DNA of 64,000 bases from Agrocybe praecox (lineage: Eukaryota; Basidiomycota; Agaricomycetes; Agaricales; Agrocybaceae): contig OZ024850.1 in the NCBI GenBank assembly GCA_964017145.1, positions 1,217,618-1,281,617 of the forward strand, given 5' to 3'. The position numbers were made by a program, and so were the translations under genes. The notes under the pieces are model-generated. The model saw only the letters and a list, made by a program, of their open reading frames with translations, was not told the DNA's origin and did not search any database. Below, piece after piece: positions 4,280 to 22,977 of this stretch. Position 1 is the stretch's first letter. The number at the start of each line of letters is the position of its first letter.

Positions 4280-6087
4280 ATGGCTCTTGGACCGGCTGAA
4301 GTTGCGTAAGTCTTTCTAATACGTCAACGATAGTCGAGATACTCAGATACACCGCAGACACGGGCCTATGCTCGTCGGATTTACTTTCAATGCGATTCTA
4401 CTTGGTGTCATGACCACCCAAGTGTATCTGTATTTTACTTCATTCAAGAAGTGGGTTTCTGGTTGAACTAAGGTCTGTAATAATCGTCTGAATTATTATT
4501 TCTTACAGGGACAAAGTATGGATCAAGCTATTTGTCGCTGCCCTGTTCTTCTTGGATCTCCTCAATACCGCCTGCGACGCTGGATACATTTACAAGGCTC
4601 TCGTTGTACATTTTGGTACGACAAAGTCTGCGATAGGTTTATGACGATTTCTAACTGCGAATCGATACCTCCAGGCGACCTAAACTACCTTGGAACTGTC
4701 ACCTGGCGTATGTCTCCATTTTTCTTCCAACATCAACGAGCTAATGAATTGTTTTCTTCTTTCCAGTCTTCGATACTGGTAAGGTTTCTGGTCCGGCCCC
4801 GAAAATGATAGAAAACTGACTATCACAACTTGGAATCAGATCCTGCTATCACGGTGAGTCGATCTCGGCGCTCCAGTTCGGATATCAGACTGACCTTTGC
4901 CTTCGTTCTATTTTGTAGGGATTTATCGTCACAGCTGTCCAATCGTTCTTCGCATGGCGCATCTACGTTCTCACCAAAGTCTGGATATTCCCTGTGCTCA
5001 TTCTCATTACTGCAATCACTGGAGGGAGTAAGCTCGTTTCACGGTCTTTTCTTATCTATCCGACGTCACTAACGTGCTTCATGTTTTACCGCTCAGTTAC
5101 CGCCATTCTGACCCCAGTCGTGGTCTCCAGAGACCCTTTATTTAGTCAGTTGATCAAGGCCAAGGTAAGTACTCGGGGTAGGATAATTCCCGAACCTCCG
5201 GACTAATTATGTCTTACAGGTTCCTATCATTATTTGGCTCTCGTCTGAAGTGCTCGGGGACGTCCTGATTACGGTTATCCTTGTGACATATCTGTGAGTG
5301 TTCGGGCCCCGTCGACATATTTATTTATTTAACTTACAATACTTCTCCACGACAGGGTGTGTACTAGTCTCACTCCACCAGCTATCATGTGGTCAACATA
5401 CTTATATTCTTACCATAGTCAAGGCATAAGACTGGATTCCAAAAGTCTGACATGCTGATTGATAGGATCATTCGAAGTAAGCGATCGACGGCATTTACCC
5501 TAACATAGGACACGACTTATTCTTATATCTTTGTACAGTCACTATTCAAACGGGTCTCGTCACGGCCGTGGTTGCACTGACAAATCTTATCGTCTATCTG
5601 GCAAGCGTGCGTATTGGTACACGTCTCGTTGCGTTTCAAGGGATTGACGGGGGTTCTGGATCCCTTTTAGGACACTGGACTGCATTTACTTTTCAATTTC
5701 CCTCTGGCCAAGCTGTACTCCAATTCATTGATGAGTACACTTAACTCGCGCGGAATTTGGATGAGCGGTCCGAGTGGCATGTCGGTTGGAGGAAAGAGCA
5801 CGGATGATCAAGCCGCGATTTCAATGGGTAACATGAACAACAACGTATATAAGCCGCCTGTCCCTCCTCCCATGAAGCCTGTAAGCACGGGTTGTTAATG
5901 ATTGACTCTAGCCTTTGTAACTAACGCTGGACCCCAGTCAGAGATGATCAATTTCAACGGAGCGAGACATGCAGAGGTATATGTCAATGTCGAACACGAT
6001 GTCCTCGACGGGAAACGCAACAACATGAGGAGCAACCTTCCGTTAGGAAAGGGCGCTTTCGATGAACCCAAGGGGTCATTCGATTAA
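4280..6087 (+). CDS. DUF6534-type seven-helix membrane protein, copy 1
   Basis: Multipass membrane protein of the basidiomycete DUF6534 family; its function is unknown. The start at 4280 gives a short first exon (MALGPAEVA) whose intron joins phase-correctly to a GPMLVGFTFNAILLGV helix. Later exons give the family landmarks: a YLYF helix followed by a DKVWIK segment, then LNYLGTVTWLFDTDPAI, SFFAWRIYVLTKVW, SDMLIDRIIR, TGLVTAV, and the final helix FPLAKLYSNSLMSTLNSR. A hydrophilic tail of about 90 residues follows, ending at the TAA at 6085-6087. At least ten introns of ordinary size are needed. Between VTYL and SRHKTGF the frame is kept only with a one-base exon at 5356 between introns 5294-5355 and 5357-5418 (62 nt each). 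Two related genes lie at 9527-13609 and a more distant one at 42237. Family assignment is by recall of the domain pattern; the role (sensing or transport) is unknown. Confidence 0.85.
5356..5356 (+). other. candidate one-nucleotide exon (G) in DUF6534 copy 1
   Basis: The upstream exon ends in phase 2 (TAT CT, then GTGAGTG) and the downstream exon starts in phase 0 (TCA AGG CAT AAG). One base must be supplied. The pattern CGACAG-G-GTGTGT provides an acceptor, one G and a donor, completing CTG (Leu). The two resulting introns are both 62 nt, and each has a plausible branch-site region before its AG. Joining the outer sites directly shifts the frame and quickly reaches TGA. Confidence 0.75.
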
Positions 6088-7113: not shown

Positions 7114-9418
7114 ATGGCACTCTCCCACTTGACAATGTCTTTCCTAATTGCGGCTCTACCGCTTTTCTTTACACTGTATACGGCTTATTCTTCGTATTTG
7201 CGATGGCTGGAATCACCAACTCGTGGATTGCCCTATCCTCCAGGTCCTTCGTCAGTTACATTACTCAACGCTTCGAAAGTACTACCACGAAGGAAACCTT
7301 GGATGGTGTATGCGGAGTGGGCTAAGAAATATGGTGTGTGTGCAGCGTTTGCGGACTTTCCACATGAAAACCCCTATTTAAACGCGACCGTGACTCAGGC
7401 GACATGGTTCATTTAAAGATATATGGTAGACATACTATCATATTGAGCAAGTTTGAAGACGCGGAAGAGCTTCTGGAGCGACGATCCGCGCAGTACTCGG
7501 ATCGTTTAAAGAGTTCATATATCGATCTGTACGTCGCCCAATCTTTACTATCATGATTTAACTCTTCTCAGCACATCACACTCTTTAGAATGGGCTGGGA
7601 CTTCAATGTTGAGTTGATGCCATATGGGAACGCCTGGCGGAAACATAGAAAGCTGGTCCAGCAATGTTTCCGAGAAAAAGCTTCACTTGCATATCAGCCT
7701 GTCCAAGCTCGTAAAATCCACGATATGCTCGCGAAACTGATTACCAAGCCCGAGGATTTCATGTCCCACTGTAGAAAGTAAGCTCGTTTCTTGATTAAAT
7801 GTGGGGCAACCAATGCAACCTTGTGTTGAAATGAATCATTTTCTCAGTACTTCCATCGCAATACTTATCTCATCTCTGTACGGAGACAATCTTACCACAG
7901 AAGATAGTGAATCATTCGTACAAGTCGCTGATCAAGTCATTGATGAACTAGCCAAGAGTTTTCTGCCTGGAAGAGTTATTCGACACTATATCCCTCTTTT
8001 ACGCTATTTGCCTGCGTGGTTTCCTGGAGCAGACTTCAAGCATCAGGCAGCTGAATTCAAGGAGCTGGCTGAGCAGATGCAGGATATGACCATGAGTTTT
8101 GTCGGACAAGCCGGCGTGAGTTTCTCTTTTCCTCTTATTTTAAAGATTTTCAAGATTTTTGACACTGCAATAGATCAAGGGAACTTCAACGTCTTCGTTG
8201 ATGTCGGATCTTCTTGAAAACTGTTATGTGCAGAGAGAGTTCGACGTTATCAAGCACGTCGCCGCTACGAGCTTTGTCGGTGAGACAATAGTATTCGCCA
8301 AGTACATATTCTCGTCTAATACTCTGTCAATTTTTCAGCTGGGGTGGATCCTGTAAGTTTCAGTTACATTTACATGTCTTAAGTAGCATGCTCATCTAGC
8401 GCCTTTGATCAAATAGACTGCCGCAGCCTTGTGTACGTTCTTCCTAGCAATGGCCTTACACCCAGACGCACAAATGCGGGCACAGGAAGAAATAGACGGA
8501 GTCTTAGGGAAAGGCCCAAATGCCCGCCTACCGGCGTTTGATGATAGATCAAAACTCCCATACGTAGAGGCGCTATATCGCGAAGTTATGCGATGGAGAC
8601 CTGTGTTCCCATTGAATACAGCACATGTCACCACGTCCGAGGACATTTACAAGGGACTTTACATTCCGAAAGGTATTCCATTTTCTCCTTGCCCCTGGCT
8701 AGTTTTATGACTGACGTCCCTGGCTTTGTCTGTTAGGCGCGAGCATTATAGCGAATAATTGGTCAGTTATCTCTTGAAATTAGCGCGGGCGCGGAAGGGC
8801 GCGGTGTGCCACGGTGCCAAGAACTATGCAATCTAATCACTGTTTCTATTTATAGGTCCATGACTCGAGATGCGGAGAAATACCCAGACCCGGAATCATT
8901 CAAACCAGAACACTTCTTGGATGAGAACGGGAACCTGAATGACGATGAAACGGTTCTAACATTTGGGTACGGTCGTCGGTTAGTGTTTCTATTACTTTCA
9001 TTCCTATTACACAGTCCGCTGGAACCAGGCCCTGTATATTTTTGATTCTATTACAGAAACTGTCCTGGAAGACATATGGCATCTGCTACGGTACCTTGAC
9101 GCCGCTTTTCCTTCACTCCCATCGTTGAGATACTGATATATTTACAATCATACTATTGCTTAGATATGGATGACCATTGTATCCGTTCTTGCTACCTTCG
9201 ATATCGGGATCAAGAAAGATGAGAAAGGAGTGGATATTCCGATCAGTCCCAACTATTCAGACGGTATGATAAGGTGAGCAACTTAATCTGCAATTTTATT
9301 CTAGTTTAGATCTGATAGAAGGATTAACCGCTTTAGCCATCCACTTCCTTTCAAGTGTTCAATAACGCCTAGAAACGAACGCGTTAAGGAACTTATACAA
9401 CCAGCCAGGGAAACATAG
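7114..9418 (+). CDS. cytochrome P450 monooxygenase
   Basis: Haem-thiolate monooxygenase of the large fungal group often labelled O-methylsterigmatocystin oxidoreductase-like; the substrate cannot be read from sequence. The start at 7114 gives an N-terminal membrane anchor (MALSHLTMSFLIAALPLFF), then the proline hinge LPYPPGPSS. Eleven introns join exons with the substrate-region motif MGWDFNVELMPYG and the I-helix AGVDPTAAAL. They also supply the K-helix EALYREVMRWRP, the ANNWSMTRD segment before YPDPESFKPEHFL, and the haem loop FGYGRRNCPGRH with its cysteine ligand. The product is roughly 530 residues, normal for the family, ending in TAG at 9416-9418. The I-helix has Pro where the first Thr of the usual AGxDTT sits, though the second Thr is kept. 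It lies between DUF6534 genes and converges on the next one, with 108 bp between stop codons. It appears intact and is probably ER-bound. Confidence 0.95.
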
Positions 9419-9526: not shown

Positions 9527-11271
9527 CTACCACTGTTCCTTGTGTACAGTTACGACGACTGAGGGTTGCTGAGGCTGCTTGACATCTGCCTATAGTTGAA
9601 AAAACCTTGTTCAACCAGCGTTTTTTTATTGATTGAATAAAGGACCACTCACCGCCGCGTTCATGACATATGCCGTGGGCTTGGGTTGTAGAATTTCAGC
9701 ACCAGACTCGCTGTAGTACCCTCTGAAGTTCCAGCCCTGCCTCGCGTTCAAGCCGCATTGGAGTGTCGTTAATAGAATCTTCGGAAGAGGAACGCTGAAG
9801 ACCAGGTACCTATATACAAGATAAGATTTTAAACTGCCATTGCTGGTACTAATTTAATTCTGAACTTACAATCCAGTATTTTGCTGTGAGCAATATACAG
9901 AATTCAAGTAGTGAGCAAGTAAATTGTAGATGTATGCGGGGAATGCCGACTAACCGAAGCAAAATATACAATCATGGCAACCAAAGCTGCTATTGGGATA
10001 ACTAAGCCTGTTTCAGCGCATACTTGATGCCGAAAGCAGATATTAGGATGGATATGCAGTTTATCAAAATGACTGACCTCTTAGAATTCGGTCCACCGTC
10101 ATCTCGTTCCGCGAGAATCGACTTTTGTTCTGGAACTGGATAAATTGAAAAAATAAGTCACGGTACATAGTCTATTAGTAGACCGCTTACACTGTTTGCG
10201 GGATAAAGAACATCGCGTAGATGGTCGCGTAAGGGATGGCTTGAATTCTCCTTGGATATAACTGATACACTCACAAATACCACAGGTGGACCCCGGCAAT
10301 GACGCAATCTGAGATTAGACCTGGTATAAGCCATATGATCATGAAGTCCTATTTAGAGATATCACATACATTAGCATAGTTCGTGGAGATGCGGAGGCTT
10401 CCTTACCTTGGTATCAAGTAAATGGCTCCAGTCCGACATTTGGAAAAGCCTCTGTGTATCGAGGATACCACCGACTACGCAAAGAAGATTTGTTTATTGG
10501 AGCAAAATATAAAGATGCGGCTCACCAGCGCTTGCGGCCCCAGTAGCAACTATGGCCACAGAATAAAGCCAGTTCCCCGTTAAGTCATATGCCCTCCTAG
10601 CAAAGAAGCATTGGCAGAACAGAATGATGATAGCCTACAAGAAAAAAAGTAAGCTCCCGGTTTATAGTCCATGCCAGGCGCTTACCGCAAGGAGAGGTTC
10701 TAATAATTGTGACAGTTAATAAGTAATGGTTCTGGATATTATCAGCACATTCACCTATCGCAATGTCTATAGAAAATACTGGTTAAATCGAGATACATGC
10801 CCATGAATTAATCTGACTTACACCAATCTATCTTCGTGAGTTCCACCTGATTTCCAAAGAATACGATCATAGTCCGATGAATGTAAACCATATTTATCGT
10901 GGAAGCGATTGTATTCAAAGCAAATAAGCCAGTGACCTAAACATATTGCGGGATATGAGGATTGTTTTCCAGACAAATGCAGCACCAGTTGATTTACGAA
11001 GAATTTGAGCCATGATTTATCCCTAGAAAAACCATAAGCATGAACGATACAATGGTATGATAAAGTACTAATAACTCGCCTCGAATGATGAGCATAGTAG
11101 TAGAGCAATTGCATTGCGGAAATCCCTAACAATATAAGACTGAATATATGACCCACGAAGAACGGCCCCAGCCTGCCACACATTGAAGATAAGATTGGCC
11201 ATCGACAATTATAGGCAGACGTTCAACAGAGGCACTTACACCGTGCTACTATCGATAGCCTCTCGAGCCAT
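9527..11271 (-). CDS. DUF6534-type membrane protein, copy 2
   Basis: Paralogue of copies 1 and 3. The first exon begins at 11271 (MAREAIDSSTV) and joins to LGPFFVGHIFSLILLGISAM. Further exons read DKSWLKFF, VTGLFALNTIASTINMVYIH, IDWLFSIDIAIEPLLA, CQCFFARRAYDLTGNW, VGGILDTQRL, DFMIIWLIPGLISDCVIAGV, NEMTVDRILR, ETGLVIPIAALVAMI and VFSVPLPKILLTTLQCGLNAR. The cytosolic tail ends at the TAG at 9527-9529. The intron after HHSR appears to use a GC donor (AG then GCGAGT). At the WYF/FQNKSRF boundary a one-base exon (10191) is needed, exactly where copy 1 needs one. It is tandem with copy 3, and the matching exon layout and similar first exons point to local duplication. Function unknown. Confidence 0.85.
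10191..10191 (-). other. candidate one-nucleotide exon (T) in DUF6534 copy 2
   Basis: On the minus strand the exon ends TGG TAT TT before GTGAGTG (phase 2), and the next coding exon starts in phase 0 with TTC CAG AAC AAA. AAACAG-T-GTAAGC supplies the missing base, giving introns 10274-10192 (83 nt) and 10190-10136 (55 nt). Skipping it produces a frameshift with a stop within about 18 codons. Confidence 0.75.
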
Positions 11272-11941
11272 AGCGAGAGGGAAGAAAAGATACGGTCAAT
11301 CACACCTGAAACATCTGCCTTCAAATTGCTTTAGCTTATTATATACAGAGGCTTCGGAATTACATACCGCTGTATCGCCTCCGTCCTTTACGACAGAGCG
11401 CAATTATTGCACTTGTAACTCCATGAGATTGTTGACCTTTGGAATATTGTCTACGGGCCAGACATGACAGCTTTGGCTGTCGTCGTTGATGCCTTTGAAT
11501 TTGATGGTCCAAGATGCATACGGCTGCAGACATCCTCGTAGTGGTAGATATGCGTTTGCTCTACACTTAGAGGAGCTCAGGCCAGCCTAGAGTTGGAGAT
11601 GCCCGAGGCCGAGAGCGGAAACATCGCAAGATGACAGCTGGGCCTTGGCCGATGGTACTCGATCGAGCTTGTGCACCCTACACATATGGACCACGGTTAA
11701 AGTGGTTAGGATACCGCACCGTACCTACCAATAATAGCAGACTGGGGCCAAAATTCAGGAGTATGGCAAGTGTTTCGCGAACCAAAGCCCGAACACAGTA
11801 CCCGCTTGTAACTTCAGAACACGAGAGAGTGCAAAAGAATGAATTGTCATGTACGACTTGTATGTACAATTTTTAGAATGTTGTATCTGTCATCGGAGGC
11901 GCCGCGAACTCGAGGACCTCTCCCTAAATATACACAATTTT
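11272..11941. other. intergenic between tandem DUF6534 genes
   Basis: Promoter region of copy 2 and 3' flank of copy 3 (both on the minus strand). Nothing beyond short unsupported frames was seen. Confidence 0.5.
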
Positions 11942-13609
11942 TTAAAATTTAGTATGCGTCTATATTGAAACGCGATAAAAAAAAATCGCAAGAAAACTGA
12001 CTGGTTTTAGGATTTCTTCATGTTCTGTATAAGCCGACTCGTTGACGTATCCCTCAAACCTCCAACCCGACCTCGTATTCAGGCAGCACATTAGGACGGC
12101 CGAATACACCTTTGGTAAGGGTAGACTAAACATCATGTACCTGTCAAGAGAACTAAGGTTCAAAAATCAACAGATTTGCAGCAGCCACAAAATGCTTACA
12201 ATCCAGTCCGTTGCTGAGGTAGAGATGCATGACGTTACTTTCTTATTTGGTAGTGATAGAAACTCGTACGTACCGATGCAACATACAAGATCATGCCAAC
12301 GAAAGCTGATAGGGGCAGAATCAGCCCAGTTTGAACAAAACCTGGGTAAATGGACGGTCTCTAGTAAATATTACTCGGTAAATTGTGCTCGGATGTTCAC
12401 CTCGTAGGAAGCGATCATAGAGCATTTCGTCTTTCGGGAAGTCTTTTTTGTGTTGACGCTAAATGAGGGGTAAAGCAGCACAGTATTCAGACCCTTGGAT
12501 TTTCGTTATTGTTTTGAAGCGGCGACGTACACTGTAGATGAGCATAAGTAAGTATAGAAATACCATCGAAAGATTATTCAACTCACAAGTACCAAAAATG
12601 AACTCCAGCTATCAAACCATCCGCGATCAAACCTGGTATGATCCAGATGATCATTGCCGCCTGAGTGAAGCATTTAGCCCCCTTTTTCGCGAATGAAGGT
12701 GGATAATATCTCACTTTGGTATCAATTATATGCTTGAAGTTAGATACCTGTCCGAGCTTTTGGCCATCCCAAATGCCTCCGACTATTTGTATTAGCAAAT
12801 ATGCCCATTCATTTTGATTAATTCAAGTACACAGAAAGACATACCTACGCTCACTGCTCCCATCGTCATTATAAAGATGGGATACCCCCATTGACCCGTC
12901 AGCTCGCGAGCTCTATGTGCGAAGAAGCATTGACATATCAGGACAATGACGGCCTGAAATTTTGGATGTGGTTACAACACAATATTGTGAACTGTGAAAG
13001 GCAACGCACATTCAAGATAGGACCTGGAATTATTGCAAAGATTAAATACAGATTGATTCTCAGAGAAACAGCCTTTATGAAACATACCGATCACAATATC
13101 TGTGATGATCGAGACGAAGGAACTCGTGTTAATCTTCAGAACACTTCGCAGACTTCGTTAGACATGCTTACTCCAGTCTGTGGTGTCCAAGACGCTCTGG
13201 TCGCCAAATGATTTGATCAGAGTTCGATACACGTAGGCCAAGTCGAACGATGAATTCAAGGTATTCGTGACGCAAAGACTTGCCACCTGGTCAAAGAAGA
13301 TAAACAGAGTAAAAAAATAGACAATTTGAGGTGCTCACATAAGTCTTCACCCATAACTTGTCCCTTCATTTCCCTGTCAGATACAGCCAAATTGTCATCT
13401 CTTGAGGCTTATTATGATGCACGTACGTCCCATACTTGATATAATACAGAAAGGCTTGAATTGCGAGTACTCCCAGAAGTATAACACTGAACGTATATCC
13501 AACAAGGAACGGCCCCAAACTGCAATGGAAGAAATAAGTTCGCTTTTCAACATACTATGGATATGATTTATACATACACTGTGCTTGCGTCTACATCCCG
13601 CCTTTCCAT
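11942..13609 (-). CDS. DUF6534-type membrane protein, copy 3
   Basis: Closest relative of copy 2. The first exon at 13609 (MERRDVDASTV) joins LGPFLVGYTFSVILLGVLAI. Later exons give DKLWVKTY, VASLCVTNTLNSSFDLAYVY, ICQCFFAHRARELTGQW, VGGIWDGQKLGQVSNFKHI, AAMIIWIIPGLIADGLIAGV, DEMLYDRFLR, GFVQTGLILPLSAFVGMI and MFSLPLPKVYSAVLMCCLNT. The TAA is at 11942-11944. A one-base exon at 12531 is needed between WYF and RQHKKDF. The exon after TTDW can only be joined in phase at an acceptor that leaves about four residues fewer than in copy 2 at the start of a helix, so either a small deletion occurred or a non-canonical site is used. The 2.6-kb transposon begins about 300 bp upstream of the start, so its promoter may be affected. 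Confidence 0.8.
12531..12531 (-). other. candidate one-nucleotide exon (T) in DUF6534 copy 3
   Basis: The minus-strand exon ends TGG TAC TT before GTGAGTT (phase 2) and the following exon begins in phase 0 with CGT CAA CAC. CTACAG-T-GTACGT gives the one base, with introns 12586-12532 (55 nt) and 12530-12459 (72 nt). Position in the protein is the same as in copies 1 and 2. Confidence 0.75.
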
Positions 13610-13913: not shown

Positions 13914-14529
13914 CACCTCAACATCACGTTATTTGTAACTAATTAGAATGTCGGACGTATGGGGAGCGGCAAGCTAAATAGAATAGAATGTGTATTTCCC
14001 ACTCACTGTCAATAAAGTGGTGGATATCTCCCTTTCCCCTCAAACGCTAAGTCTTAATTCTCGTGCGCTACGCGTATAGCGCGCGCTTGCTGGTGCGTAT
14101 CCGTGCATATGTGCCAGCGCATGCCTTCGGGATTGTCCGTCCCGTGCCATTCCGGCTTGCTGGCCGCGCTCCCACGTGCTTACACATCGTCTCGCCGATG
14201 TCCCGTCACTTCCTAATTTGGAACCCGTTCCCATGTACCTTTGCTCGCTGTCTGCGACGACGACGAGGGTTATTCCTTTATCCCTCAGCTTATTCCTTCA
14301 AATTTTTCTACTGTATAGATGCTATGTACTCTGTAGATAAAATACATGCCCTTTACAGTATTTATTCAGGCCAGATATGCCAAATATATGTGTATTTTCG
14401 CAGTTTTCCTCCTCATTTTACCATTGAATACCTTCCTGATAGGCTGATTGGCTAGCTATACCCATATAATGTTAGTTATACATGTATCCATGTTATATAT
14501 AATTTTTGAACAGTTTTACATAGTATATG
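13914..14529 (+). repeat. left terminal inverted repeat
   Basis: It pairs with 15929-16544 over about 616 bp. Both arms contain the same 130-codon open frame (14063-14455 and its mirror), which is a property of the repeat and not evidence for a gene. Confidence 0.85.
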
Positions 14530-15928
14530 AACCCAGAAACATGACCATACTGCCTATCAGAGCCTGCAATCTCACCTACTAGCTTCCTCATGCCTTTTGT
14601 GTCGCATATTTCAGATATTATGGCACATATAAGCCAGAGACCAGCTCTTACTGCCATATTAGAGACATTGTAAGTATTTAAAATGGTCAAACTTGCACCA
14701 AGGTGCAGATATGTATGCCATATTCCGGCACACACATAACAATCTCTAGTCTAAAAAGACCTTCTCCATGAGTATACAATGCCACAAAATTAAATATATT
14801 TATATATACATACTCTTTTGATGGTCGTACAACAACCTTGCTTGCACGAGCATGTGTCCAAAAGGAAAAAGGTACAGCTGCCAGTTACTCCATATCTGTG
14901 CCTTTATCAATGTTTTATGGAGCATCCTGGGTGCCTAAATGCTATTCTGAATAGATATTGTGAGTAGCCAATATATAATAGCACCAGATATAAGCCCATC
15001 TGCCGGAACTTAGTATCATCTTGTCGTGATAAGAGGCGCCCACCAATTACCGCCCAAAAACGGATAAATATGCGACGGTGTGACTCTGCACGCGCTTAAT
15101 CGGTCTTTTAAACTCAATATTAATCTAACGAGAACTATTAAGAATACGATACAAAAGATTTGAGGGAGATCGGTGAAAAACCTGTGAAGGTATTCATTGA
15201 TAAATTGTTTAACAATCAAATTATATGCACGTCGTCACAACAGTGACCATTGATACATCGTCTCAGCACTATTTAGTGAATACCGTCAGCAATATATACT
15301 CCATTATAATACGGTTTTCTGCTTTACGTGCGGGCAATGTACGCTCTCATACCCATTGTTTAACCTAAGAATTTGACCCAATCTACGCTCCATAGCGTGA
15401 CAATTTCTCCATATCTCGAACATCTTCTCTGCACTGACTTTGACGCCTCGCCCACCGGTATTTCAGCCTGATAGGCGCCTATATACAGTATTGGGTGACC
15501 ATCAAATCTGTTTGAATGCATATATTTGATTCCTGTACGAATTTATGACTGCTGGTATCCCTACTTAACTTCCATGTATTGGTCATGCATCCGAGACCAG
15601 TTTCGACACTAGATAGGCGTTTTAGCATGGCAAGAGTGCTTCTTTGGAAGCATGTAATATTGATAAGCCTTTGTAGTGACGAAATTTGACACGAAAATAT
15701 CATTAAAAACCACAGGAGCTAGGTAGACTCAAAGTATAACCAACATATTACTCAACCAAAGCTTCTCAGAGCAAGAAATTTAATTATACTGTGATACAGT
15801 ACACACATGAACAGCTTTAAGACTGCATATGAGGGGTAATTGAATGGTACAGAATGCCACAAGATGTGCATATATTTGGTAACCTGGATGTTGGGACTAA
15901 AGGACCAGTACTAGGATATCTGGGGGCC
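14530..15928. other. central region of the inverted-repeat element
   Basis: AT-rich, about 1.4 kb, with short frames only. No transposase motif, RNA gene or internal repeat was recognised. Confidence 0.5.
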
Positions 15929-16544
15929 CATATACTATGTAAAACTGTTCAAAAATTATATATAATATGGATACATGTATAACTAACATTATATGGCTAT
16001 AGCTAGCCAATCAGCCTATCAGGAAGGTATTCAATGGTAAAATGAGGAGGAAAACTGCGAAAATACACATATATTTGGCATATCTGGCCTGAATAAATAC
16101 TGTAAAGGGCATGTATTTTATCTACAGAGTACATAGCATCTATACAGTAGAAAAATTTGAAGGAATAAGCTGAGGGATAAGGGAATAACCCTCGTCGTCG
16201 TCGCAGACAGCGAGCAAAGGTACATGGGAACGGGTTCCAAATTAGGAAGTGACGGGACATCGGCGAGACGATGTGTAAGCACGTGGGAGCGCGGCCAGCA
16301 AGCCGGAATGGCACGGGACGGACAATCCCGAAGGCATGCGCTGGCACATATGCACGGATACGCACCAGCAAGCGCGCGCTATACGCGTAGCGCACGAGAA
16401 TTAAGACTTAGCGTTTGAGGGGAAAGGGAGATATCCACCACTTTATTGACAGTGAGTGGGAAATACACATTCTATTCTATTTAGCTTGCCGCTCCCCATA
16501 CGTCCGACATTCTAATTAGTTACAAATAACGTGATGTTGAGGTG
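15929..16544 (-). repeat. right terminal inverted repeat
   Basis: Reverse complement of the left arm with a few mismatches, ending ACGTGATGTTGAGGTG directly before the second TGGATATT copy. Confidence 0.85.
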
Positions 16545-17851: not shown

Positions 17852-19836
17852 TTACACGATTGTGATAAGCTGCCTTGGAGTATCTATCCAATCTTTGATA
17901 TCAACAAATGGCTCTTCCTCCCAACCTTCGTCCAAAATCTGAGCATGGACATTGAAAAACCCCACGCGAACATGAACACCTTGCACATTTTTCGAGGGTA
18001 TCACCAGAATACCAAGAAGGTTGTGCAACACTGCTTTGTTGTGCTCACCAATGACGACAGCTAGCCCTTCGTTCACCTCTCCGTCAGCAAAATCATGGTA
18101 CACGAACCCGACCTCCTTGCGTTTCCCCTCAACCATCTCGTACAATGGCGAGTCATTCGAATCCCGCTGAGGCTTTCCCCAGGAAACGTGACGGACAATG
18201 GCTTCCAGTTGGATGTCGCCTCTTTCGATCTCACCGAATGGAAAATTTGGTATTTTAGGCGTTATGCTGCAATGATGGATGACTATTAGTGGATTGATAC
18301 GTCCAGGCCATCCTCCATCGGCTATGAGGCCGTCAGTAGCCGCCCACGACCAAGATGGCGCACGGTATTCTTTAGGACGGTCTGTCCTGGCAGAGGAGGA
18401 AGAGCGACACCAAAGTAAGTCTTGCGCCAATGTTGTTCTCCAAAGACCACACACATAATCGGTTTCATGTACCCATGTCCTTTGGAAAGCCTGAGCAACA
18501 CCGGAAAGAGCGACCAATTTATCTGCAGAGTTCGTCACTGAGCGACGGGTATACTCGGCCAGGACTTCTTTCCATCCAAGCCAGGACTTTCTTTCTGCGA
18601 TATCTGAATTTCCGTTCGGAATCTGCAACTCTTCCCTCTTTTTGTCGGTTAGAAAGTTGTTTCCTCCACCGACATTCTTCAGGCCTCTACGACACTGAAA
18701 TTGCAAGGTGTGCGAGGCATATACCAATGCTCTCGACGCTAGCAAACGTTCTTGAAAACACCACGCGCGTTGACTGATGGGTTCTGTCCGTGGCGCCCTC
18801 TCCTGGTCGCGAACAGAAATAGTTCCCATTTCGTGTGATGGGAGCCAGAATGGAAGTTCTGTAGACACGGGATTCTTTCTGTCGTGCAAGAAACCATCTC
18901 CGGCCTTTTTCGCACATGAGGCAATAATTGTCACGTATGCCCTTTGATAGATATCGCACATTTGCGAAATTTCTCGACCCTTGTCTTCAGGCGAATCTTG
19001 GATGATGCAAAGTGTGTCTGTCCAGAGATATCGGAGCCCTAAGGAGTGCGTTGTAGTGATGGCGTCTACGATAGTGCGTGGAAGGGCATTGATGTCGATC
19101 TTTGACATGTATTTTTCGATATTGGTGGTGAATGTGCTGTGAGGTTGGGCTTGGCCCTAGACATAGCTAAGCGCTGCATATCTTGCCTCTTGTCCTTCGC
19201 TGTGATGAAGTTTGGGGTTCTTTGGGTCGGTGCAGTCGACTACTCTGGTTGGAAGTTGTGTTTTGTCCGAAGATTGGCAGGTGTGATTGTTTGAACAATC
19301 ATCTATGCATTCGCGGGCCAGTGTGAAGCTTGCCTTCGAAGATACCTCCCAGATTATGTTTCGCCCACAGACTAGCTTCGCTGCTGGGTCATCTGAAGGT
19401 ATTTTCAATACTCTTTGATCAATGCAGCATGTTTCGCAGACGTACCTGGAGATGTATGCACCTCATATGTGTTTGGAAAGTGATCATCTCCGATATATGT
19501 CGACAGCCTCATATGATGCGGTGGATCTTTATCCTTCCTAAATTGCACCGTTATTTTCCACCTTTCGTCTTCATCTGGCCACTCTTCAGTCCTGAGGTGC
19601 TGGTCCCTCCGCTTTTTTCGATATTCGAGGATATCTCCCCATAGAAAGTCACACCAGTTACATCCTGCGTTTTCCCCGTCATCAATATTCTTCCAAGTTT
19701 GCGTCGTGTAGGTGTATCCTTGAGATAGTTTATCACTTTCTTCAAGATTGGATACAAGGGCCTTTTGGAAGTTGTTGAAGTCGAAAAGGGTTGTCCAGCA
19801 TATATTGCATATCAAGGAGCCGTTTCTCAAAACCAT
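17852..19836 (-). pseudogene. HET-domain (heterokaryon incompatibility) protein with in-frame TAG
   Basis: HET proteins mediate self/non-self recognition after hyphal fusion. The N-terminal exon starts at 19836 (MVLRNGSLICNICWTTLFDF) with a CNWCDFLWGD segment. It is joined through an intron (GTACGTC to CTTCAG) to DDPAAKLVCGRNII. The HET core follows: RYAALSYV, then LGLRYLWTDTLCIIQDSPED, REISQMCDIYQRAYVTIIA, and the late YRAPSWSWAATDG block. Between ALSYV and GQAQPHSTF, where the family has an invariant Trp (SYVWG), the codon is TAG at 19157-19159. The frame is otherwise open on both sides and the rest looks undamaged, so the lesion is young, a sequencing error, or corrected in RNA. Undisturbed, the protein would be about 640 residues. 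Typed as a pseudogene on this single lesion. Confidence 0.8.
19157..19159 (-). other. in-frame TAG at the conserved HET-domain tryptophan
   Basis: The codon reads TAG where family alignment expects TGG (SYV-W-G). On the plus strand it is CTA for expected CCA, a C-to-T change in a CpA context. Downstream GGC CAA GCC continues the same frame for over 430 codons. Confidence 0.85.
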
Positions 19837-20538
19837 TTGTGGGGAATTAGGTTCAATGCGGTGGTGTATTCTTGATTCGTTAACGATGAAATCACATACG
19901 AAACAGGTTTACATCTTCATATATAGCACCGGTGCTTTCCCGTTCCCAAGAGTCTGGAACCCATGTACAGACAAGTGCACTATGTTTCTTACTCACAGAA
20001 TTATGGTTTTTGGATCGTTATTCTTTTTCGAAGAAGATGCTAAGAAGAGACAGACCTTCGGACTGCTCTGGTTTTCGATAGACAGTGCCATTCTTGTGCC
20101 GTAATAAATTCAAACCCCGATCGTAAAAGGATTTCACGTAAGAGAATCTTTTGTTTAGCTCCTTATCAGACTACTTATAGAAAAAAGTTGCTTGGAAATA
20201 TGTATGGCTTTGAGCAAGTCAAATTTGTTAACCTATATTTGTCTCCCAGCAATTCATTCTAATGTGGTGTCACTGCTAGCAGAGAGGCGAGGAGCACACC
20301 GGGGTACGTTTTCCTCACGCTGACGAAACTTTTGCGCTTCTCTAATCTATCCACAAGGTGTCTACGCGTCGAAGAAGCACCTATCGGACGACCTCCACAC
20401 TTCAAATTGCTAATAAAAGCTCTTAAGCGTAGTGTGCTGGTCGGCTGACGTATCTGTTGACCATGCATTTTTAGGTAATGACTATAAGACCAGGCCTACT
20501 TCGCTTTGCTGTAAATCTAATTCCAGTCCTCGACTAAG
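19837..20538. other. divergent promoter region HET / GH20
   Basis: About 700 bp between the starts of two divergently transcribed genes. No clear motif or extra open frame could be supported. Confidence 0.5.
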
Positions 20539-22977
20539 ATGAAAATCCACGGCACTTCTACTTTGTTTGGGATCTTGACGTTGAGCATATGTCATTCGGT
20601 ACACGCGCTATGGCCTATGCCTCGTAACCTCCAAACAGGAACCACGCTTGTAAAGCTTTCCTCCACCTTTGACATTCAAGTTCAAGGCATATCCCAAGTT
20701 CCCCAAGACTTGCTCGATGCTATATCTCGCACCAAGACGCGACTACACTCGGATAAACATCAAAGACTTGTCGTTGGACGTGGAGCAACAGACAAGACGG
20801 CATTGACACATGCGCCTTCTCTATCAAAGCTGACCCTGTCCGTGCCGGGAAGCAAGACAGTTCAATCTATTATGCATGAGGCTACAAAGGATATCGCGTC
20901 GAGAAGCGAGGGCTACTCCCTATCTTTACCCAGTACAAGCGGAGGCACCGCAACTATCACAGCAAATTCTTCTCTCGGTCTCCTTCGAGGACTTACCACA
21001 TTCGAGCAGCTGTTCTTTGACGATGGTACTGGTGTTACTTATGCATTCCAAGCTCCTGTGACCATCAAAAACGATTCCCCAGCATTTGTAAACTCACATA
21101 CCTCTTTGTGCATGACCTTTCTCTCTGACAAGTCAATATATAGCCATGGCGCGGTTTTATGCTTGATACGTCAAGAAACTTGTGAGCATATTTACATTTT
21201 TATAATCATGGCGGTCCTAGTTGAACGTGTTGGCTAGCTTCAGAGTTTCGGACATAAAAAGAACATTGGACGCTATGAGCATGGTGAAGGTGAGGAAAAA
21301 TCTTCCCTCAAATTTGCCGTGAATTATAAATTTACAAACAACGATGACTAGATGAGCCAATTCCACTGGCACGTTGTCGACTCCCAAAGCTTCCCCTTGA
21401 CTATACCTGGCTTCCCTGAACTGGCCCAGAAAGGTGCATACTCGACGGACGAAATTTACTCTAGTGCAGACATTCAAGACATCGTCACTTATGCTGGGAC
21501 TGTAAGCTTATCTTACGAATGATCCCCTCTAGAATATAATTGCTCAATAAATTTGTCTAGCGCGGAATCGACGTTTTAGTGGTAAGCACTAAACGATACT
21601 TGAGACTCATCAATATCCATGATTCAAAAAATGCAGGAAATCGATACCCCTGGACACACAGCAATAATTTCCACCTCGCATCCCGAACACATAGCCTGCG
21701 CACAAGCCTCTCCATGGCAATCCTTCGCCAACGAGCCCCCGGCAGGACAGCTCAGACTCGCGTCAGCCGCCACCGCCAACTTCACCGCGAGTTTGATCAC
21801 TTCCCTCGCGCAGACTCTCCCGTCCACTATGTTCAGCACTGGCGGCGATGAGCTCAATGTTAACTGCTACACCCAGGATGCGCAGACTCAGGCGGATCTG
21901 AAGGCCTCTGGGAAGACGCTGGAACAAGCTCTGGATGCGTTCACGCAGACTACTCATGGCGCATTGAAGGCAATTGGGAAGACCCCTGTTGTCTGGGAAG
22001 GTTAGTTACTAGTTTCTTGCCTCGGCATGCTATCCCACACTGTCTGGTAATCATTCATCTGGCATATCGCTTCCAGAAATGGCCCTTGAACATCAAGTCA
22101 CACTGTCCAATAAAACCATCGTCATGTAAGTCTTATCATACCAGTTCATTTATTTTCTCCTTGTTTGACCATGTTCTGTAGGGTATGGATCTCATCACAA
22201 AACGCCGCTGCCGTAGCTGCCAAAGGACTCAGACTCGTACACGGACCGTCCGACTTCTTCTATCTCGTGAGTTCCAAGTTCTGAAGTTTTACTCCAAGGG
22301 ATTTCATTTCTGATTACTACACATCTTTGATAGGATTGCGGAGCCGGAGAATGGATCGGAGACGACCCCACAGCGTAAGTAACCAATGTTATATGCGCAG
22401 ATTAATATGGCTGGCAGTCCAACATAGTATTTTTTATACAGGAACAGCTGGTGTGATCCTTTCAAGTCATGGCAAAAGGTATGTATTTCCGTCCCGCTTA
22501 GGACACCCTTCATCAACAAAAGCGTTGATGATTCAATGATGCATAGGCCTACACATTCAATCCTCTCGCAAGTCTTTCAGCGGCTGAAGTACCTCTAGTT
22601 CTCGGTGGTATGTCATCAAAGGATTCATCAGACCCAAAACAACACTCACAAGGTTTTCTATCGTTTTAGGCCAGCAGCTTCTATGGGCAGAACAATCCTC
22701 GCCTCAAAATTTGGATAGTATCGCATGGCCTCGAGCGGCAGCTTCAGCGGAGGTTGGTTACTTTTCTACTTATGAGGAGAGTAGTCTTAAACGCATTCGA
22801 ATGTAGATTTTCTGGACAGGTGCAAATCTTCCTGACGGAACTCCTGTCAACGTCCGCAATGCTCTGCCTCGTCTGCATGATCTCCGTTTCAGGATGGTCC
22901 AAAGAGGCATCAACGCGATAGCTCTACAGCCGCAATGGTGTGCTCTGCGGGATGGGTCCTGCAATATTGACTCCTAA
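20539..22977 (+). CDS. secreted beta-N-acetylhexosaminidase (GH20)
   Basis: Hydrolyses terminal N-acetylglucosamine from chitin oligomers, for cell-wall turnover or chitin use. It starts with a signal peptide (MKIHGTSTLFGILTLSICHS), then LWPMPRNLQTG typical of the fungal GH20 N-terminal domain. Introns join PWRGFMLDTSRNF, SDIKRTLDAMSMVK, MSQFHWHVVDSQSFPL, RGIDVLVEIDTPGHTAII and FSTGGDELNVNCY, where the Asp-Glu pair is the family's catalytic dyad. Then come VVWEGMALEH, NSWCDPFKSWQKAYTFNPLA, LGGQQLLWAEQ, ASAEIFWTG and the C-terminal GINAIALQPQWCALRDGSC, ending TAA at 22975-22977. All junctions are in phase and all key motifs present, so the gene looks intact, about 560 residues. It converges on the WDR7-like gene with 212 bp between stops. 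Confidence 0.95.

Follow-up and report, generated by a model that had tools for sequence, protein, structure and literature searches.

The window analysed here, a 64,000-nucleotide (nt) stretch of contig OZ024850.1 from the 59-Mb genome of Agrocybe praecox, carries three paralogous genes encoding membrane proteins of the DUF6534 family (copies 1 to 3). In each of them, two consecutive introns are very probably separated by an exon of only one nucleotide. On the basis of 3893 predicted sequences, DUF6534 proteins were suggested in 2025 as a possible new class of fungal receptors, with a seven-helix fold similar to that of G-protein-coupled receptors (PMC12842992). Our profile search of solved structures found no relative (best E value, 0.95). 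The three genes are located as follows.

4280..6087, plus strand: copy 1, DUF6534 gene, 14 exons, 340 amino acids, frame intact with the one-base exon
9527..11271, minus strand: copy 2, DUF6534 gene, 15 exons, 300 amino acids, frame intact with the one-base exon; exon 2 followed by a GC donor
11873..13609, minus strand: copy 3, DUF6534 gene, 15 exons, 290 amino acids, frame intact with the one-base exon

When spliced with the one-base exon, all three copies are complete open reading frames. Their matches to Pfam model PF20152 (DUF6534) run across the one-base-exon junction and score 73.4 (copy 1), 41.0 (copy 2) and 44.3 bits (copy 3), in every case above the curated cut-off of 28.2 bits. Among the matches listed, the closest named relatives of copy 1 are found in Galerina and Pholiota (~68-70% identity).

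Structure at the codon

The elements that make up the junction in each copy are given below.

5294..5355, plus strand: copy 1, upstream intron, 62 nt, phase 2
5356, plus strand: copy 1, one-base exon G, third base of Leu179 (CT+G)
5357..5418, plus strand: copy 1, downstream intron, 62 nt, phase 0
10192..10274, minus strand: copy 2, upstream intron, 83 nt, phase 2
10191, minus strand: copy 2, one-base exon T, third base of a Phe codon (TT+T)
10136..10190, minus strand: copy 2, downstream intron, 55 nt, phase 0
12532..12586, minus strand: copy 3, upstream intron, 55 nt, phase 2
12531, minus strand: copy 3, one-base exon T, third base of a Phe codon (TT+T)
12459..12530, minus strand: copy 3, downstream intron, 72 nt, phase 0

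With exons in capitals and splice sites marked by slashes, the junction reads ...TAT CT/gtgagt (62 nt) cacgacag/G (5356)/gtgtgt (62 nt) ccatag/TCA AGG in copy 1, ...TAT TT/gtgagt (83 nt) gcaaacag/T (10191)/gtaagc (55 nt) atccag/TTC CAG in copy 2, and ...TAC TT/gtgagt (55 nt) catctacag/T (12531)/gtacgt (72 nt) catttag/CGT CAA in copy 3. The frame of the downstream exon of copy 1 is fixed by the KTGF motif and by the spliced-profile aligner described below. In these copies and in three further genes of the genome (six of six), a phase-2 donor is followed by a phase-0 acceptor at codon 178/179, i.e. the flanks are out of phase by one base. According to hydropathy, the one-base exon completes the codon that closes the fifth hydrophobic segment, ahead of a basic loop.

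The initial annotation had placed the phase-2/phase-0 mismatch at the equivalent codon of copies 2 and 3, with AG-N-GT cores at 10191 and 12531 and intron sizes of 83+55 and 55+72 nt. These coordinates and sizes proved exact, with one core in each copy. Its statement that the one-base exon occupies the same codon in three paralogues also holds, with copy 1 as the third (5356, 62+62 nt), and can be extended to the three genes located elsewhere in the genome.

A core was considered valid when it left two introns of at least 49 nt. By this definition, each of the six genes has a single AG-N-GT core, and both flanking introns are 55-83 nt long with GT...AG ends. In dinucleotide shuffles of the combined intron of the six genes, any valid core arose in 31-147 of 1000 sequences and an equally good one in 0-3 of 1000. 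If the one-base exon is left out, the combined intron measures 119-139 nt, whereas the other aligned introns of these genes, 61 in all, span 49-72 nt. Exon lengths of 12, 14, 109, 1, 58 and 68 nt are repeated at the same codons in all six. The 12- and 14-nt exons (4767-4778 and 4840-4853 in copy 1) are also common to these genes in both length and codon.

Six genes of one clade

The genome was searched with a spliced-profile aligner written for this analysis, which permits GT...AG introns at any codon position and gives tiny exons no special reward. It returned the one-base exon in copies 1-3, in L052, and in two L053 genes (L053a and L053b). As far as the genome was searched, the exon is therefore carried by six genes, not three. 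L052 lies on another contig and its protein is 94% identical to that of copy 1, while the L053 genes are located on the same contig as the window, roughly 30-35 kb before its start.

At least 49 DUF6534 matches were listed for this genome, of which one is in the window, 47 were taken whole and one (C9:1737801) was taken only in part. The resulting 57 alignments include a few overlapping duplicates (L012/L051 and L031/L050) and some loci that came from a protein query, not from the Pfam model; L032, L034, L035, L045 and L046, with no alignment of 32 or more, are outside the counts. Of the 57, the 54 that are not L052, L053a or L053b contained no exon of 3 nt or less, and 43 of these 54 cover the codon. 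A phase-0 intron just before the codon or within two codons of it was present in 22 of the 43, a further 14 lack an intron there and have one in phase 2 nine codons later, and the remaining 7 show other arrangements. In L017, L009 and L027, which represent other DUF6534 subfamilies, a phase-0 intron stands directly before the codon, two bases upstream of the first intron described here. The DUF6534 family thus shows three intron positions within one codon, and may be useful in studies of intron gain or sliding.

With a profile built without copy 1, prohibiting the one-base exon cost 19.6, 20.7, 33.7, 19.6, 19.6 and 24.7 nats in the six genes. This profile also left out 8 of the 39 relatives, whose models are broken at the junction. 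Because their omission could bias the alignment toward a seamless junction, a control run was performed with all 39 relatives; it gave the one-base exon in all six genes, with a prohibition cost of 19.3-34.1 nats.

The six genes group together as a single clade, with support of 100/99, in a 43-row tree. Apart from the copy 1/L052 pair, their proteins are 29-63% identical. Synonymous sites are saturated in the L053a/L053b and copy 1/L053a pairs, and the synonymous divergence (dS) between copies 2 and 3 is 2.2 in the downstream exons. Given saturated synonymous sites and such low identity, the AG-N-GT core has outlived most of the surrounding neutral sequence. The initial annotation had argued from three independent sequences that the arrangement is not due to chance. 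Chance is indeed disfavoured by the shuffles, in which cores as good were so rare, but the copies are not independent, since they are paralogues from one clade. Their sharing of the exon is best read as the outcome of one origin, followed by inheritance and retention, and not as three separate solutions. The further proposal, that the micro-exon is conserved and ancient and marks a DUF6534 subfamily, has good support from the six paralogues in one clade, from the saturated synonymous sites, and from the frequent failure of gene models in other Agaricales at a codon where transcript-like sequences are seamless.

Several other features were observed in the window. Exon 2 of copy 2 apparently ends at a GC donor (11080-11079, minus strand; TTCGAG/gcgagt), and the same site in copy 3 is GT. 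A cytochrome P450 gene lies between copies 1 and 2 at about 7114-9400 on the plus strand, with a Pfam match on the 8417-8707 exon. Just upstream of copy 3 there is an inverted repeat (13914-14534 / 15924-16544) with 621-nt arms, 99% complementary and spaced by 1389 nt, which looks like a DNA transposon or a foldback element with long terminal inverted repeats. A HET-domain (heterokaryon incompatibility) gene at 17855-19156 on the minus strand and the start of a family-20 hexosaminidase gene at 20521-21234 on the plus strand were also identified.

Gene models and transcript-like proteins of other fungi

The comparison with other species used predicted proteins, which were taken in two samples. 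The first sample, the best 120 of 163 relatives, consisted of 102 gene models and 18 transcript-like rows, i.e. rows that bear no gene-model name (17 from contigs of ~1-3 kb, and P0081 from one of 7.6 kb). The second sample added 75 new rows among the best 120 of 285 relatives. In the gene models of the first sample, an insertion or deletion (indel) was found within -5 to +6 residues of the one-base-exon junction in 30 of the 94 scorable rows. At the comparison sites, the 12-nt exon had indels in 21 of 101 rows, the other junctions in 4-16, and five off-junction places in 0-3. None of the 18 transcript-like rows of this sample had an indel near the one-base-exon junction.

When the gene models of the first sample were divided by order, an indel in residues 166-190 was present in 39 of 73 from Agaricales versus none of 29 from other orders; at other junctions the corresponding figures were 4-19 of 73 and 0-3 of 29. 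Models from other orders are therefore cleaner at most of these junctions, but the excess at the one-base-exon junction is specific. The second sample gave 23 of 51 for Agaricales, 0 of 11 for other orders and 0 of 13 for transcript-like rows, with 0-11 of 51 at the other junctions. For both samples pooled, the ratio is 62 of 124 Agaricales models to 0 of 40 from other orders (combined Fisher p 1.7e-10). Across both samples, an indel near the codon was seen in 0 of 31 transcript-like sequences, and the codon was seamless in all 31.

Pairs consisting of a gene model and a transcript-like sequence at 80% identity or more were sought for 65 broken or odd models. Of these, 26 came from the second sample by visual selection, compared with the 23 that the indel count yields for that sample. 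Such pairs were obtained for 14 of the 65, and the transcript-like partner was seamless in 14 of 14. The Armillaria gallica model P0142 is identical to P0125 at 305 of 307 residues, yet an insert of 15 residues interrupts it exactly at the codon; five further Armillaria models deviate there in other ways. In Leucoagaricus gongylophorus, P0118 has a 21-residue insert that is absent from P0081 (98% identity). Six models (P0018, P0021, P0024, P0034, P0079 and P0113) have dropped residues from a position that is usually Val (a GT codon) in relatives, as would be expected if the software looks for a donor in phase 0 and finds none at the true exon end. A protein search with copy 3 gave one relative, P0121, whose C-terminus is similar to the last exon of copy 3 and whose model is likewise broken around the junction. 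The 'L-V-x' inserts in models of other species were not counted as proof, since a retained ordinary phase-0 intron would look alike.

The data from other genera bear on the exon indirectly: they document models that fail and a codon that is seamless, rather than the one-base exon itself in those species. It appears likely that the whole expanded candidate-receptor family across Agaricales has the one-base exon as a fixed trait of ancestral origin, in scores to hundreds of genes and at least 18 genera.

The probable one-nucleotide exon, its alternatives and known systems

It is very probable that all three genes in the window hold a genuine, constitutive one-nucleotide exon between two ordinary GT-AG introns of about 60 nt. 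The single base (AG/N/GT) would complete, in third position, the Leu or Phe codon with which the fifth hydrophobic helix ends. Only one base would then separate the 3' splice site of the first intron from the 5' splice site of the second and, as two sites so close presumably cannot both be bound at once, the introns would have to be removed one after the other. By analogy with fungal stwintrons, they may be recognised by intron definition and removed consecutively, after which the base would be joined into the messenger RNA (mRNA) with the frame kept. This DUF6534 clade presumably inherited the structure from its ancestor, probably within Agaricales, and would have kept it through duplication because loss of the base breaks the frame before the last helices. 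In each of the six genes, skipping of the one-base exon brings up a stop within about 12-26 codons.

Several points weigh against this reading. We infer the inclusion of the base in the mRNA of Agrocybe praecox, and the failures in other genera, seen in predicted proteins, are indirect evidence. Half of the Agaricales models (62 of 124) are unbroken at the codon, and at most junctions Agaricales models are less clean than those of other orders; among the taxa compared, order assignments were verified by look-up for 13 from other orders and 8 from Agaricales. The transcript origin of the 31 seamless sequences is likewise deduced, only 16 of their contigs being shorter than an unspliced gene would require, and 3 of the 18 transcript-like rows in the first sample have an indel elsewhere, one each at three other junctions. 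Within the six genes, the 83-nt upstream intron of copy 2 exceeds all 61 other introns in length, the second intron of L053b has weak splice sites (0.9), and a branch-like motif [CT]T[AG]A[CT] is present in only 5 of the 12 flanking introns. Finally, copy 1 and L052 have a conventional in-frame alternative, a 130/134-nt intron with the acceptor gtcaag/G, which drops two residues (SR).

The initial annotation had also suggested that the exon acts as an on/off switch for the last helices, i.e. that its conditional skipping truncates the protein after the fifth helix. Skipping does yield an early stop in all six genes, and a 20-nt microexon serves as a glucose switch in Trichoderma virens (PMC11121469). 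An early stop, however, is the outcome of any frame-breaking loss; it makes a switch possible and is no evidence for one. No skipped form was present among the 31 transcript-like sequences, from which truncated or decayed forms might be missing through failure to assemble. The proposed switch thus found no support and is very unlikely.

Also very unlikely is one conventional long intron with another acceptor or donor, at the price of a few residues lost or gained. Besides the alternative in copy 1 and L052, there is one solution in L053a, which adds Tyr, and the P0050 gene model of another species is without two residues at the same place. However, the nearest transcript-like relatives, P0001-P0003, keep these residues, copy 3 has no single-intron in-frame solution within 12 nt, the solutions for the other genes have weak sites, and lengths of 119-139 nt are outliers. 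Single introns with GT/GC-AG or AT-AC ends were also tried and rejected (0-5 per gene within 12 nt, all weak-sited), as was a further acceptor in copy 2 (aacaaaag/T), which lies beyond the 12-nt limit and would cost about five residues.

A stwintron in the strict sense, with nested introns of which one splits a splice site of the other and no exon base is left, is extremely unlikely. Two adjacent introns at one site that require consecutive splicing do recall fungal stwintrons (PMC5639578), but full removal leaves the frame one base short, with an early stop in six of six genes, and so cannot give the protein. A frameshift, pseudogene or assembly error, for which nothing speaks beyond the phase mismatch itself, was already disfavoured and is equally improbable, as the mismatch is common to six separate loci, the downstream frames are intact, the ratio of nonsynonymous to synonymous divergence for the copy 1/L052 pair, based on few changes, is 0.31 ahead of the codon and 0.16 beyond it, and a frameshift priced at -12 nats never beat the one-base exon in any of the six genes.

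A genuine one-base exon would explain the indel at this spot in half of the Agaricales models examined (62 of 124). It places an exon of minimal size at a single codon in a family that has duplicated and diverged, which allows retention to be traced over many genes and species instead of one. Gene-finding software often errs at this gene structure, which is rare and seemingly old in the family, and models broken at the codon would disturb the topology and clustering of the DUF6534 receptor candidates described in PMC12842992. If present throughout Agaricales, the exon would far exceed all other known one-nucleotide exons in its distribution, and would be a systematic source of wrong models in this family. 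Among the matches listed, Coprinopsis cinerea AmutBmut, a laboratory mushroom, has a gene of this group (P0127); should it carry the one-base exon, the use of splice sites one base apart would be directly testable in that fungus.

One-nucleotide exons are a known kind of structure, for which APC11 and CYP621A provide the precedents; a mitochondrial one-base exon in placozoan cox1 also appears in a literature listing. A literature search on one-nucleotide exons, fungal or mushroom microexons and DUF6534, with subscription journals mostly outside its scope, returned no report of the exon described here. As far as was searched, the new elements are the mushroom case, retention in six diverged paralogues, and the likely Agaricales-wide reach. 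Fungal stwintrons also consist of two adjacent introns whose consecutive removal is obligatory, but they leave no exon base, whereas the mushroom genes must keep one (PMC5639578). The switch-like microexon of Xlr2 in Trichoderma virens is another fungal microexon whose loss would alter the protein; in contrast to the one-base mushroom exon, it has 20 nt and is regulated by glucose (PMC11121469). The single-nucleotide exon of Arabidopsis APC11 was demonstrated with complementary DNA and green fluorescent protein fusions (Guo & Liu 2015, PMC4674806). There too, one coding base lies between AG and GT and is needed for the frame, but APC11 is a single-copy plant gene with the base in a 422-nt region, unlike the two short introns and duplicated family of the mushroom. 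The CYP621A exon of Fusarium was demonstrated by RNA reads and is presented in that paper as the second known case, and as the first from fungi (Nelson & Syed 2026, PMC12940212). It resembles the present case in being fungal, in its discovery through a phase mismatch, in an apparent intron of about twice the usual length (139 nt in CYP621A), in an AG-G-GT core, and in the wrong gene models that result. It differs in that the mushroom cores carry both G and T, and in that it provides the middle base of a codon in orthologues of one Fusarium P450, whereas the mushroom exon provides the third base in six diverged paralogues.

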